Below are positions 35,028 to 38,732 of a stretch of 64,000 bases of DNA, in pieces. Origin of the DNA: Brevibacillus brevis (lineage in GTDB: Bacteria > Bacillota > Bacilli > Brevibacillales > Brevibacillaceae); the NCBI RefSeq assembly GCF_001039275.2, contig NZ_CP030117.1:1819501-1883500 (forward strand). The letters are read 5' to 3'. The notes under the pieces were generated by a model. It was not told where the DNA came from. It ran no database searches and saw only the letters and a list, made by a program, of their open reading frames with translations. A program made the position numbers and the translations under genes. Position 1 is the stretch's first letter. The number at the start of each line of letters is the position of its first letter.

Positions 35028-35417
35028 ATGACAATAGATAGAAGGAAGACGTTCTTTACTAATGAAGAAATGGGTGAATAAAATCAGAAAGGAACTTGAT
35101 GTTACAGGGTTGATTGTGTTTTATCTAGCGAGTATGCAAAGAACCTAGAAAAATATTCGTATAAAGAGAAATAGATAGAAGTACGTCATGAATAAAAAGT
35201 TGAACTCCAAACGAGTAATTAACTACTGGTTTGGAGTTTTCTTATGTGTTTTGGCAAGTCCTCTGTCTGAGGGGGCTTAGGCGTAAAATCTTTTCTACCA
35301 ACAAACATATTTGAACCATAAAACAATGACAAAACTAGAATAATATGGTATTTTCTCTGTAAAAATATGTTACGTCTCGCGTATAATCTCGAGTCGCATG
35401 GAAGGGGATCGATAGAT
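35028..35417. other. 390-base AT-rich intergenic region upstream of the redox/export cluster
   Basis: No convincing gene is present. One 28-codon frame (35062-35148) has only a distant AAGGAAG site and no recognisable domain. A terminator hairpin occurs at 35203-35241. A possible -35 (TTGAAC at 35311) and -10 (TAGAAT at 35336) lie 19 bases apart upstream of the thioredoxin-like gene, but the spacing is long and the call is weak. Confidence 0.4.
35203..35241 (+). terminator. Rho-independent terminator upstream of the redox/export cluster
   Basis: AACTCCAAAC pairs with GTTTGGAGTT over a 16-base loop, followed by TTCTTA. It would stop transcripts coming from the PhzF side. Confidence 0.65.
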
Positions 35418-35951
35418 TTGCTCATAGCCGTAAACATGATCTTTCTACTTATCTTTGCCTTTATATTGGCAAAAGTTCTCACCCTATTAAAACAAACACG
35501 AGATCAGGTCCATCACTTCCACCCTTTCATCCCGGAAACAGGACCTGCAATCGGCACCAAATTGCAATCGCTACCTTTCCTCACGCTAAACGGTCAAGAA
35601 CAACAACTAAATCATCTGCCTCGTCCACTCATCGTGAACTTCACCCATACAGGCTGCGGGCACTGTGCCAATCACGTACACGAACTATTGTCCGAGGGAA
35701 GGATACTCACAGATGCATCCGTGATCATCTCGACAGAATCCGAACAACTATCCACTTCCCAATGGCTGCAAGAAAACAACATATCCGGCATCCCTGTCTT
35801 AATTGGCAACGAACCTATGCTGGAGGCATACAAGATCAATCATTTCCCCAGCGTTTTGGTAATCGATGAGCAGGACGTCATTCGTGCCAAGCCGATAACC
35901 GCCGTGGAAACCAAAAAGAAGCTCCTGGCGCTAGCAGGTGAACCAGCATGA
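35418..35951 (+). CDS. Membrane-anchored thioredoxin-fold protein with CGHC active site
   Basis: This 177-residue protein has an N-terminal membrane anchor (AVNMIFLLIFAFILAKVLT) and an outward thioredoxin domain. The active site is FTHTGCGHCANH at residues 80-83 (Cys-Gly-His-Cys, the redox pair of eukaryotic disulfide isomerases); FPSVLVID supplies the cis-proline. It is TlpA/MauD-like. It probably forms or shuffles disulfides on the outer face of the membrane, with the MauE-like protein as electron partner. The start is a TTG at 35418 exactly 8 bases after AAGGGGAT; the frame is open upstream to 35367 but that part has no ribosome site. It overlaps the ABC exporter gene by ATGA. Confidence 0.82.
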   Translation: MLIAVNMIFLLIFAFILAKVLTLLKQTRDQVHHFHPFIPETGPAIGTKLQSLPFLTLNGQEQQLNHLPRPLIVNFTHTGCGHCANHVHELLSEGRILTDASVIISTESEQLSTSQWLQENNISGIPVLIGNEPMLEAYKINHFPSVLVIDEQDVIRAKPITAVETKKKLLALAGEPA

Positions 35952-37732
35952 AACGTTCTTATTTTGCAAAAACCGTTCGCTTGATTTGGGCACATGGCAA
36001 GCTGTGGCTCATTTGTTCTATCGCTCTCAGAATCATCCTGGCATTTTCCCCGTTGGCTACGATCTGGATCATGAAAGAAATGGTGAATGAGGTTACTGCC
36101 ATTGCGCTGGATCAGACGGATGATTACCAGCCATTGCTATGGCTGCTTGCGGGATTGTTTTCCGTGACGCTGGTGACGAATGCGTTGGAAACGGTCTTAC
36201 GTGTTCTCGATGCCCATACAGAGCAACGATTGGAATATCATTTGGAGCATTTGGTAGCAAAGAAAGCAGCATCTGTTCCGCTCTCTTATTTCGATGATCC
36301 GGAATTTTACAACCATCACCACCGCATCCGGGCAGAGGCAATGGGGGAACGCTTTCTGGACCCTGTGGAAAGGGTATTAGATCTCGGGAAAAATCTGATT
36401 ACTCTGATTTCCTATGCGGTGTTTTTGCTTAGCATTCACTGGGGATTAGCTGTGATGAGCTTGTTAGCCGTGATCCCACTCTTAATCGTCCAAATCAAAT
36501 TTGGTATGTCGGAATACTTTCTCGCAAGGCTACAGACGCCAGAGATTCGCGAAGCCTCTTACATCAGCTCAATCCTGAATGAGCGCGACAGCTCCAAAGA
36601 GGTCCGACTGTTTCAGCTAAAGGACTTTTTGCTAGGTAGATGGTCTCGCCTGTATTTGAAAAATATGAAAGAGGTACTTCGTCTCCTCCATCGCAGGGAA
36701 AAAGCGCTGATTCTCTCAGGGATATTTACCTCCTCGATGTATATTGGCTGCTTGGGATTGGTCGTATCGCTGCTTCGTGCGAGCGCCCTGAAGGTTGGGG
36801 ATTTTGTAGCGATTGCACAAGCGGTACAGAATACGCAGCAGTTGCTTTCGTTAATGACCTTTAACCTCGCACATATTGTCAACAGATGCCTGTACATCGC
36901 TGATCTGTTTGACTTTCTGGAATATGAGGATAAAACGATTCCGCGGCTCACTGGCAAAGCGGAGTTTCCCAGCAAGCTGCAATCTGGTATTACGTTTGAT
37001 CGGGTTTCGTTTTGCTATCCCAAAATGGAACGCAATGTGATCAATGAAGTTTCCTTTACGATTAATCCAGGGGAGCGTATTGCGATTGTTGGCGATAATG
37101 GCTCTGGAAAAACGACGCTAGTCAAATGCTTGATGGGACTTTATCCGATCCATTCGGGAGATATTCTGTTCGACAATCAGTCGATTCGTGAGCTCGATAT
37201 TTCCGACCTGCAACGAAATATCACGGTCATTTTCCAAGACTTTATTCGGTACAATTTCACGGCTGGAGAGAACATTACCATTGGGAGAGTGACGCAGGAG
37301 ATTAATCCCGCGCAGATGAGGCAAGTAGCGGTTGAGACCGGTGCAGATACCTTTATTCGCAAGCTCCCCAGTGGATACGATACGATTTTGGGTCGGACGC
37401 TACAGGATGGCGAAGACCTGTCAGGCGGACAGTGGCAGAAGATCGCGTTGGCTCGGGCTTTGTACAGAAGAGGAGAGATTTTTATTCTGGATGAGCCTAC
37501 GGCGGCACTTGATCCGCAGGCAGAGCTGGAGGTATTTCAACAATTTGATGCTCTCACACAGAACAAGACGGCGATTTTTATTTCCCATCGGATGGCTGCG
37601 GCACGAATGGCGGATCGGATTTTTGTCATGAAGCAAGGTCAACTGATCGAAGTAGGGCATCATGATGAGCTAATGGATGCAAACGGAGAATATTCGCGCA
37701 TGTACCGGATGCAGGCGAAATGGTTTGCGTAA
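35948..37732 (+). CDS. ABC exporter, LanT/NisT-like, without peptidase domain
   Basis: This is a 594-residue half-transporter. Residues 1-330 hold about six membrane helices. The nucleotide-binding domain has IAIVGDNGSGKTTLVKCLMG (Walker A), VIFQDFIRYNFTAGENI, DLSGGQWQKIALARALYR (signature) and FILDEPTAALDP (Walker B). The FQDF(I/V)-Y-T-EN stretch is typical of exporters of lantibiotic-type peptides. No C39 peptidase domain precedes it, so leader cleavage, if any, must be by another enzyme. Overlaps with the thioredoxin-like gene and 15-base spacing to the MauE-like gene make one operon. Export of the peptide at 38559-38657 is the leading hypothesis. Confidence 0.85.
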   Translation: MKRSYFAKTVRLIWAHGKLWLICSIALRIILAFSPLATIWIMKEMVNEVTAIALDQTDDYQPLLWLLAGLFSVTLVTNALETVLRVLDAHTEQRLEYHLEHLVAKKAASVPLSYFDDPEFYNHHHRIRAEAMGERFLDPVERVLDLGKNLITLISYAVFLLSIHWGLAVMSLLAVIPLLIVQIKFGMSEYFLARLQTPEIREASYISSILNERDSSKEVRLFQLKDFLLGRWSRLYLKNMKEVLRLLHRREKALILSGIFTSSMYIGCLGLVVSLLRASALKVGDFVAIAQAVQNTQQLLSLMTFNLAHIVNRCLYIADLFDFLEYEDKTIPRLTGKAEFPSKLQSGITFDRVSFCYPKMERNVINEVSFTINPGERIAIVGDNGSGKTTLVKCLMGLYPIHSGDILFDNQSIRELDISDLQRNITVIFQDFIRYNFTAGENITIGRVTQEINPAQMRQVAVETGADTFIRKLPSGYDTILGRTLQDGEDLSGGQWQKIALARALYRRGEIFILDEPTAALDPQAELEVFQQFDALTQNKTAIFISHRMAAARMADRIFVMKQGQLIEVGHHDELMDANGEYSRMYRMQAKWFA

Positions 37733-37747: not shown

Positions 37748-38308
37748 ATGGAAGAGCTTGGTTTGCTGTTTCGGCTGATTCTCGCATTTTTATTTCTCAG
37801 CACGGTTGTCTCAAAAATAAGCGATATGGGCACGCATTTGTCCATTGTGCGAGCCTATCAGATCATACCCTACTCGTGGTCCAAACTCTTTACGTATCTT
37901 GATCTGGTGTTGCAAGCCACCGTAGCGATTTCCTTGCTGCTTGGTCTTTTTACAACCCTGGGACTGTCCCTGGCGATTTTGTTACTGGGGGCGTACACAC
38001 TTGCGATCAGTATCAATCTAGCAAGAGGCAGAAAGAAGATTTCTTGCGGATGCGGCGGAATGGCGGGAAACCATTTTTTATCGTGGAAGCTTGTTTTGCG
38101 TAACCTTTTATTCATCGGTCTGGCCGTTTATGTGGGGCAATGGGGCGGGGGCTGGGCGAGTGTTGACCAGTATTTCATGTCCGGCAGTTTCGAAATCACC
38201 AACGGGGTAATCGCTATCTTCTTTTCGAGTGTGTGCATCTCACTGCTCATGGCTATTAGCGGAGAAATCAGTACGTTCAAACATATTTTGCGAAAAAGGC
38301 AGGGATGA
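37748..38308 (+). CDS. MauE-like membrane redox protein
   Basis: This 186-residue protein has about five membrane helices and starts MEELGLLFRLILAFLFLSTV. In a loop after the third helix it carries RKKISCGCGGMAGNHFLSWK (Cys 100 and Cys 102). The MauE family pairs such Cys-Gly-Cys loops with a thioredoxin-like MauD. Here the partner is the CGHC protein two genes upstream, so an electron relay through the membrane is likely. GGAGGAGGGG precedes the ATG. It overlaps the next small gene by ATGA. Confidence 0.78.
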   Translation: MEELGLLFRLILAFLFLSTVVSKISDMGTHLSIVRAYQIIPYSWSKLFTYLDLVLQATVAISLLLGLFTTLGLSLAILLLGAYTLAISINLARGRKKISCGCGGMAGNHFLSWKLVLRNLLFIGLAVYVGQWGGGWASVDQYFMSGSFEITNGVIAIFFSSVCISLLMAISGEISTFKHILRKRQG

Positions 38309-38472
38309 GCATGTCTACAGGCTGGATGATTGGGTTCGGGGTATTATGGGTGACGGTCATTGCGATTTTGGTCGTCTTGTTTCAAGTATTAAAGGTACTC
38401 GGGACGTTCATTAACAAAATGGAAGCAGCAGAAGAGAATAATAGAAGAAGCGACAAAAATATTACTTCTTGA
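38305..38472 (+). CDS. 55-residue single-membrane-span protein, possible immunity or accessory factor
   Basis: This short gene begins MSMSTGWMIG and contains one long hydrophobic helix (residues about 9-36). It has a charged C-terminal tail (NKMEAAEENNRRSDKN). It starts inside the MauE stop (ATGA) and follows AAGGCAGG, and an internal ATG at 38311 is also possible. Its size, single span and position immediately before the peptide gene are those often seen for bacteriocin immunity or accessory proteins. No family is recognised, so this role is a guess. Confidence 0.7.
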   Translation: MSMSTGWMIGFGVLWVTVIAILVVLFQVLKVLGTFINKMEAAEENNRRSDKNITS

Positions 38473-38516: not shown

Positions 38517-38558
38517 ATTCCTGTAAATACATTTTATGTAAAATGAGAGGTGATAAGC

Positions 38559-38657
38559 GTGTTCAAAAAATTACTCCAAAAGCTAGGAGCAAGCGCATTT
38601 GCAGGATGCCAAAAAGGATGCGTAAGAAATGGCCCTTTGTGTGAATGCCCTTGGTAG
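38559..38657 (+). CDS. 32-residue cysteine-rich peptide, candidate substrate of the redox/export cluster
   Basis: A GTG start follows a strong AGAGGTGAT site. The first 16 residues are basic and hydrophobic, with four lysines, and could act as a short leader or an amphipathic helix. Residues 17-32 read CQKGCVRNGPLCECPW: four cysteines at 17, 21, 28 and 30, then Pro-Trp at the end. Four cysteines allow two disulfides. No Gly-Gly cleavage site is obvious, though Ala-Gly precedes Cys17. The gene has its own promoter, a cre site and a strong terminator. I do not recognise the peptide; antimicrobial, signalling and toxin roles are all open. Confidence 0.72.
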   Translation: MFKKLLQKLGASAFAGCQKGCVRNGPLCECPW

Positions 38658-38677
38658 TTTTCCAGGCAAATAAGTAG

Positions 38678-38732
38678 AACAAGACTGTCTCGCAAGTGGA
38701 GAATTCTACTACAGGAGACAGTCTTGTTTTTT
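38678..38732. terminator. Strong rho-independent terminator after the peptide gene
   Basis: AACAAGACTGTCTC pairs perfectly with GAGACAGTCTTGTT (14 base pairs), followed by TTTT. It ends the peptide transcript and could also serve the convergent acetyltransferase gene. Confidence 0.88.

Follow-up and report, generated by a model that had tools for sequence, protein, structure and literature searches.

Organization of the locus

The window analysed here is a 64,000-nucleotide stretch of the Brevibacillus brevis genome. On its + strand lie, in this order, genes for a TlpA-like protein, an ABC exporter, a MauE-family protein and a 55-residue membrane protein, then a gap and the gene of a 32-residue peptide (Table 1).

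Table 1. Coordinates of the cassette genes, the peptide gene and associated signals in the window.
Feature	Position	Strand	Basis
TATAAT, possible -10 element 5′ of the first gene	35382..35387	+	By eye; absent from the consensus-scan list, hence weak
TlpA/MauD-like membrane-anchored thioredoxin-fold protein, 177 aa, TTG start	35418..35951	+	Translation, profiles, AlphaFold model
CGHC redox site	35655..35666	+	Translation
ABC exporter, membrane domain and NBD, 594 aa; 4-base overlap with the preceding stop	35948..37732	+	Pfam, NCBIfam, tree
MauE-family membrane protein, 186 aa	37748..38308	+	PF07291, 85.7 bits (cut-off 27), E 4.1e-24
CGC motif invariant in MauE, within a loop of positive charge	38045..38053	+	Alignments
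55-aa single-span protein	38305..38472	+	Match to the anchor segment of a second TlpA-like protein encoded in some other cassettes
Likely ribosome-binding site for the peptide, GAGAGGTG	38545..38552	+	By eye; 5/7 in scan
32-aa four-Cys peptide VFKKLLQKLGASAFAGCQKGCVRNGPLCECPW, GTG start, no apparent signal sequence	38559..38657	+	Translation, conservation
Probable terminator: strong hairpin with a T run behind it	38676..38730	+	-30.3 kcal/mol, z -6.55

The first frame is open throughout and encodes NFTHTGCGHCANHV, a protein with one hydrophobic segment at the N-terminus. In the list of open reading frames (ORFs) the longest version of the gene begins at ATG 35367. The TTG at 35418 is preceded by an AAGGGG ribosome site, and in three of the seven loci of the window type (described below) the first possible start is at the point of this TTG, giving 177-residue ORFs.

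By sequence the protein is only a weak member of the thioredoxin family. It scores 22.9 bits with the AhpC-TSA model of Pfam (cut-off 26), 29.2 bits with the MauD model TIGR02661 (equivalog cut-off 188.6) and 18.3 bits with the ResA family model NF002854 (cut-off 170); the best Pfam and NCBIfam models all stay below their cut-offs. The AlphaFold model, with a mean pLDDT of 82.4, displays a thioredoxin fold of the TlpA/ResA type, and structure comparison places ResA, TlpA, StoA and Etrx2 among the nearest solved folds. As modelled, the protein has the fold and the CxxC of ResA/TlpA/CcmG proteins. The CGHC motif occurs in one of the 58 non-overlapping window ORFs of at least 80 residues and is kept in all seven window-type loci.

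The initial annotation had described a thioredoxin-like gene with CGHC next to a peptide exporter and a MauE-like partner, with no cytochrome c genes nearby, and this description holds. The gene is real, with no internal stop, the exporter gene is directly 3′ of it, the next product exceeds the gathering cut-off of the MauE family, and the haem motif CxxCH is absent from all 58 ORFs.

Pfam matches to the exporter up to E 0.1 include no C39 peptidase domain. In MauE, Cys100, Gly101 and Cys102 are invariant in alignments of 18 and of 27 sequences. The MauE model gives no Foldseek match with E ≤ 0.001. With VIA-align the best row is NACHO/TMEM35A (Z 12.5, rmsd 2.5, 116 residues), the next row has Z 7.5 and VKOR entries have Z 4.7-5.8. 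A likeness to NACHO of what is modelled as a helical bundle says little on function and was not used for the mechanism.

The 55-residue protein is probably the remnant of a second TlpA-like protein after loss of its thioredoxin domain, because it matches the anchor part of such proteins in other cassettes (best match 6.1e-8, L147). It is present in all seven window-type loci, with 17 silent and nine replacement changes, and the terminator sequence is likewise kept in all seven. A consensus scan for promoters and terminators returned sites no more frequently than in shuffled sequence; the hairpin at 38676-38730 exceeds its loop limit and is not in its list. No immunity gene was recognized at the window locus.

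The peptide and its orphan paralogues

The initial annotation named an exported peptide without giving coordinates, and the ORF listed in Table 1 now supplies them. The peptide VFKKLLQKLGASAFAGCQKGCVRNGPLCECPW has a cationic, amphipathic start followed by a C-x3-C-x6-C-x-C pattern, ends with CECPW and, judged from its 32 residues, appears leaderless. Begun with methionine, it has a calculated average mass of 3485.2 Da when reduced and 3481.2 Da with two disulfides, before any loss of the formyl group or the methionine.

Of 26 genomes of the genus, counting that of the window, seven encode a TlpA-like protein with at least 90% identity to that of the window. In six of the seven the peptide is encoded beside the cassette at the same place, with 91-100% identity to the query. 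Among those six, the gene has accumulated 12 silent and four replacement changes, a ratio of about 0.09 by simple count, not a likelihood estimate. In the seventh genome, G022, the unit of promoter and peptide is missing (L064 6200-6600), the exporter genes, the 55-residue gene and the terminator are kept, and three paralogous peptides remain elsewhere in the genome.

Six of the seven genomes, among them that of the window, also encode orphan peptides of 32-34 residues, with the same start and cysteine pattern, far from the exporter; in G011 the sole peptide is the one beside its cassette. This suggests that one exporter serves several peptides. A profile built from these same peptides, with at most 20 candidates scored per genome, has strong matches (E ≤ 1.3e-15) in only seven of 398 Bacilli genomes, the same seven, the next match in another genome having E 3.7e-4. 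Cassette and peptide co-occur in seven of seven genomes of the genus against none of the other 19, a link inside the genus that is confounded by phylogeny and suggestive only, as close kinship of the seven could explain it.

In the genome of the window two orphan four-Cys peptides (L056 8454-8552 and 9525-9632, at about 3663453 and 3664530 of G000:C1) are neighbours. A small hydrophobic protein with no Pfam match is encoded between the two in the five genomes that have both, and is a possible immunity protein. In G000 and G005 the C-terminal end of this protein seems to have changed.

Homologous cassettes across the Bacilli

A search of the 398 genomes placed MauE relatives at 25 sites besides the seven window-type ones. 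We read 20 of these, leaving out five in G002, G024, G039, G215 and G229. One to three TlpA-like proteins are encoded at all 20 and an ABC exporter of the window type at 19. Carriers of the cassette include Brevibacillus formosus, B. porteri, B. borstelensis, B. reuszeri, Tumebacillus avium, Fictibacillus aquaticus and two Priestia megaterium plasmids typed as mobilizable. One locus (L141, G181 C5) has three TlpA-like genes, MauE and a peptide and no ABC gene in its 13 kb; its genome has other cassettes with an ABC gene. Downstream of the cassette at L135, L137 and L139 is a gene for a very large protein of about 1380-1400 residues, permease-like by eye and preceded by an ATPase gene in two of the three, which may be an immunity or resistance exporter. 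On the P. megaterium plasmid pPmC-129-1 (L233) MauE is followed by a Tn3-family transposase gene, and a sister plasmid has a second TlpA-like (redoxin) gene at that place.

Stretches of up to 8 kb were scanned for intergenic ORFs of 25-90 residues with at least four cysteines, at least 6% cysteine and a ribosome site. Such ORFs occur at 26 of 30 cassette loci, three of which are the laterosporulin loci described below, and in five of 20 control regions drawn from most of the same genomes (Fisher p 1.6e-5). The cassette loci yielded 34 ORFs, and the controls five, of which two are apparently zinc-binding proteins. With near copies merged the counts are 19 of 21 against five of 20 (p 2.5e-5), and with a stricter ribosome site 19 of 30 against two of 20. 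The four loci with no hit were L064, L136, L152, which is at a contig end, and L159, where a peptide is nonetheless present. At L066 the hit is spurious, and the genuine peptide is encoded there behind a weaker ribosome site. A P. megaterium plasmid cassette carries a 60-residue ORF with six cysteines at the expected place.

The scan rule was formed on those 30 loci and was tried on further loci found via the ABC protein. Of 20 such places read, 13 have a TlpA-like gene and seven have neither TlpA nor MauE. A Cys-rich peptide is encoded at 12 of the 13, L274 (TlpA and MauE) being the one with no such peptide; MauE is likewise present at 12 of the 13, the other being cut by a contig end. We caution that this later set is partly dependent on the first: L279 nearly duplicates L145, L269 and L270 are alike and five of the 13 genomes were already among the MauE matches. 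At three of the seven places lacking TlpA and MauE there are Cys-containing ORFs with an FDLD start of the kind known from lanthipeptides.

The curated peptides have common features. Cysteine counts are even (four, six or eight) in all 32, CC or CxC is found within a few residues of the end in 29, and a short first stretch ending in [LIFM]G, like that of the window peptide, occurs in 22. Left out of this list were L146, L159, the one identical copy found in L153 and the ORFs at L149 7120-7218 and L066 4462-4653, both of which we judged spurious. In the later set, with the identical copy in L267 counted once, the count is even in 11 of 13 peptides, those of L276 and L282 having seven cysteines. 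Full pairing of the cysteines would be the natural reading of even counts, with rows that are not independent. Ten cassette peptides compared with Pfam and NCBIfam gave nothing above any cut-off, and two compared with the sequences in the PDB gave no match.

Relationship to laterosporulin loci

Laterosporulin is a class IId bacteriocin of the Brevibacillus laterosporus group. A laterosporulin homologue printed in PMC6510442 was used as query and has matches in three of 39 genomes of the family. In all three a laterosporulin-type gene is followed by TlpA-like, ABC, TlpA-like and MauE genes. The TlpA-like proteins are hardly seen by Pfam and match the cassette-protein profile with E about 1e-11 to 1e-13. 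The loci encode a further anchored protein with no CxxC (L158 9578-9994), thioredoxin-like by eye and with no Pfam match, that is comparable to the 55-residue anchor remnant of the window. In a quick tree of 39 ABC exporters a branch with SH-aLRT 100 separates the cassette and laterosporulin proteins from 15 others, 14 of them from the window's genome, so that the tree speaks for the exporter families sampled. Fragments (L137, L152 and L218) and near copies (L064, L065, L066 and L068) were left out of the tree, as was L141, which has no ABC gene in its 13 kb. The later set added second laterosporulin-like cassettes with eight-Cys peptides (L269 and L270). In the window's own genome (G000) the query has no match at E ≤ 0.001.

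According to the accessible text of two reports, laterosporulin is antibacterial, leaderless apart from its methionine, and has three disulfides (PMC3293901, PMC6510442). The neighbours named there are a hypothetical protein, an ABC transporter, a dehydrogenase and a regulator, or two transporters, and in the same text we found no mention of redox genes (PMC3293901, PMC6510442). Expression of cloned clusters in other hosts is described as having failed, as had an earlier attempt with a 4-kb fragment (PMC6510442). The cassette may bear on how laterosporulin is made.

The two systems share a Cys-rich peptide that is, or in the window appears to be, leaderless, an ABC exporter with no protease domain and adjacent TlpA-like and MauE genes, the exporters being homologous members of one clade and the redox genes homologous as well. 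They differ in that laterosporulin has about 50 residues and six cysteines whereas the window peptide has 32 and four, with no detectable similarity between them. The laterosporulin cassette has two anchorless CxxC proteins and an anchored protein with no CxxC, whilst that of the window has one anchored CxxC protein and the 55-residue anchor.

The redox motif and its orientation in the membrane

All 50 TlpA-like ORFs in 24 other cassette loci contain CxxC, in 39 different motifs, none of which is CGHC; the seven window-type loci alone have CGHC as an invariant motif. The alignments indicate that the cysteines matter and that the pair between them is not conserved. The initial annotation had taken CGHC as a pointer to disulfide isomerase function, a use of the motif that we reject given how strongly the dipeptide varies among homologous cassettes.

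The same annotation placed the redox site outside the membrane. The charges flanking the anchor oppose this. Of 45 cassette TlpA-like proteins, 40 have a higher net charge after the span than before it, two show the reverse, one of which (L149 6249) has no recognizable anchor, and three are ties. The ResA-like controls from the same genus all have the opposite orientation (0/13 inward). The window protein has a net charge of 0 before the span and +2 after it, so that an outward anchor of the ResA type, with positive residues before the span, is not predicted for it. The cassette rows omit L146, which is nearly identical to L145, and the laterosporulin loci, which were handled apart; the controls omit L018, where the start is unclear, and L024 and L025, which have CGTC and are of cassette type.

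An earlier, cruder count had found more lysine and arginine after the span in 35 of 44 cassette proteins but also in nine of 14 controls. It failed to separate the controls because it took lysines at the extreme N-terminus as belonging to the span. The count was redone using a trimmed core, net charge and starts guided by ribosome sites and, since this procedure was devised after the first result, was repeated on fresh loci. There, 11 of 13 anchored proteins are inward, two are ties and none is reversed; five more rows have no anchor.

Two further observations point to the same side. Over their first 45 residues the five CxxC proteins of laterosporulin loci that were tested show neither a span nor a signal, and those of the second laterosporulin-like cassettes are likewise devoid of both. 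In T. avium a natural fusion of TlpA and ABC proteins, 795 residues long (L149 7315-9702 / L168 5599-7986), has a span at residues 4-22, a thioredoxin domain at about 25-159, a lysine-rich linker and the exporter from residue 202. The N-terminus of such ABC exporters is cytosolic and therefore the fused thioredoxin domain should be cytosolic too. The topology of the fusion is taken by analogy from the exporter family, and a simple hydropathy scan finds four spans, not six, in the exporter part. Among the matches listed in the ABC-protein search there is no second uninterrupted fusion.

The CGC loop of MauE has a net positive charge in 23 of 27 sequences and a negative charge in none, the segments predicted on the opposite side being neutral or negative on average; by charge, the loop is predicted to be on the cytosolic side too. 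Taken with the anchorless homologues and the fusion, the anchor charges strongly indicate that the CGHC domain of the window protein is cytosolic, with the caveat that single spans do not always obey the positive-inside rule.

Proposed function and alternatives

We propose that the locus is a dedicated cassette that matures and exports short peptides of the laterosporulin type, leaderless and rich in disulfides. The ABC protein would export the 32-residue peptide and probably also the orphan paralogues encoded elsewhere. The TlpA-like protein would be held at the membrane, close to the exporter, with its CGHC facing the cytosol, and would exchange electrons with MauE, whose CGC loop would face the same side and which would pass the electrons on. 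The two disulfides of the peptide would be set before or during export. The product would most likely act as a bacteriocin, an activity borrowed from laterosporulin by analogy.

A role for the TlpA-like protein on the exported peptide rather than in cytochrome maturation is well supported, since it adjoins a conserved gene for a Cys-rich peptide and homologous cassettes usually carry such peptides. This part of the initial annotation stands, although the arguments that it drew from CGHC and from an extracytoplasmic site do not. The model as a whole, in which a cytosol-facing thioredoxin-like protein forms part of a maturation and export cassette for leaderless, disulfide-rich, bacteriocin-like peptides, we hold with moderate confidence. 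The gene set, its conservation, the association with Cys-rich peptides and the homology of exporter and redox proteins to those of laterosporulin loci were computed directly; that the peptide is the substrate, that the chemistry is oxidative, that electrons pass to MauE and that the product is antibacterial is what we infer. The loss of the thioredoxin domain from the second TlpA-like protein of the window counts against the model. Extended to the Bacilli, the idea becomes that of an inward-facing membrane machine, built of TlpA-like and MauE proteins, in which disulfides are formed inside and the folded peptide is handed to the ABC exporter, the whole serving a large bacteriocin-like class and the orphan peptides also. 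We offer this broader version tentatively, as possible and somewhat short of probable.

Cytosolic disulfide formation would be unusual, and a thiol site in the cytosol could equally keep the peptide reduced. The thiol proteins might then be reductases that hold the peptide unfolded until it reaches the exporter, with disulfides made outside by a system like BdbC/BdbD. The predicted cytosolic topology fits such a scheme and the host genome does have a DsbB-family gene elsewhere. However, the cytosol is already reducing and a special membrane partner should be needless for reduction, so the need for one argues for oxidation; MauE is nonetheless at 12 of the 13 TlpA-bearing loci found via the exporter, the last being cut by a contig end. 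We regard reductases as unlikely. ResA, TlpA, StoA and Etrx2, which are among the nearest solved folds, work outside the cytosol and methylamine dehydrogenase is a periplasmic enzyme. These facts suit a thioredoxin domain outside the membrane that oxidises or isomerises the peptide after export, as does the speculation, in the accessible text of PMC7794033, that MauE helps to form the disulfides of the methylamine dehydrogenase beta subunit. Such a domain is improbable given an anchor charge bias opposite to that of the ResA-like controls, the anchorless homologues in laterosporulin loci and the fusion of TlpA to the exporter.

With respect to the product, the tiny size of the peptide (32 residues) and the presence of several paralogues per genome with apparently one exporter are what might be expected of secreted signals. 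The only characterized relative by gene context, laterosporulin, is however antibacterial in the accessible text of PMC3293901 and PMC6510442, and no receptor gene was recognized among the eight window proteins run against Pfam; there is a small chance that the peptides are signals rather than bacteriocins. Finally, the resemblance of the fold to ResA, StoA and TlpA might place the protein in a cytochrome or cell-wall thiol pathway, beside the peptide by chance. Cytochrome maturation is disfavoured by the lack of CxxCH in the window and by another ResA-like gene of the host, with CGPC, that lies elsewhere beside a DsbD/CcdA-family gene, and the association of cassette and peptide across the Bacilli is hard to square with chance. 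A pathway of this kind is very improbable indeed.

Comparison with known systems and implications

Sublancin-type and pediocin/bactofencin-type bacteriocins have thiol-disulfide helpers, leaders cut by C39 exporters and helpers that are extracytoplasmic. They resemble the present system in encoding a disulfide helper with the bacteriocin, and are unlike the window in that the latter appears to have no leader, has no C39 domain and probably has a cytosolic helper. The MauD and MauE proteins of methylamine dehydrogenase share the MauE family (PF07291) and a weak MauD similarity; they differ in that their substrate is an enzyme subunit and the window protein misses the MauD cut-off. Closest in concept are candidate RiPP families identified in Streptomyces with decRiPPter. 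The accessible text reports mauE in three of them, with mauD also in one, beside precursors predicted to have at least eight cysteines, and its authors propose that the precursors are modified (PMC7794033). The similarity is in the placement of mauE (and mauD) beside predicted Cys-rich precursors. Unlike the cassettes described here these are candidates from Streptomyces and not Bacilli, and in that text there is no mention of a laterosporulin link, of topology or of an exporter fusion (PMC7794033). A part for MauE in peptide maturation has thus already been proposed in print (PMC7794033). In an open-access literature of incomplete coverage, including the accessible text of PMC6989792, PMC9867215 and PMC11869030, we did not find the Bacilli cassette, the laterosporulin link, the orphan peptides or the inward topology, and this widespread cassette is apparently undescribed.

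The disulfides of secreted bacterial proteins are normally made outside the cytosol. If the model is true, an inner-face cassette working together with an exporter would be a new arrangement and could help to make disulfide-rich peptides in ordinary hosts. In the broader version it would be the counterpart, turned inward, of the DsbA/DsbB or VKOR systems and would imply a large unnamed class of bacteriocin-like peptides, with laterosporulin the only product recognized here. The combination of an ABC exporter, a TlpA-like protein, MauE and a small ORF with an even number of cysteines provides a search rule for new candidate peptides. More distant MauE genes, found in Proteobacteria and other phyla (L171-L190), carry a motif of the RGRxxISCGC type.
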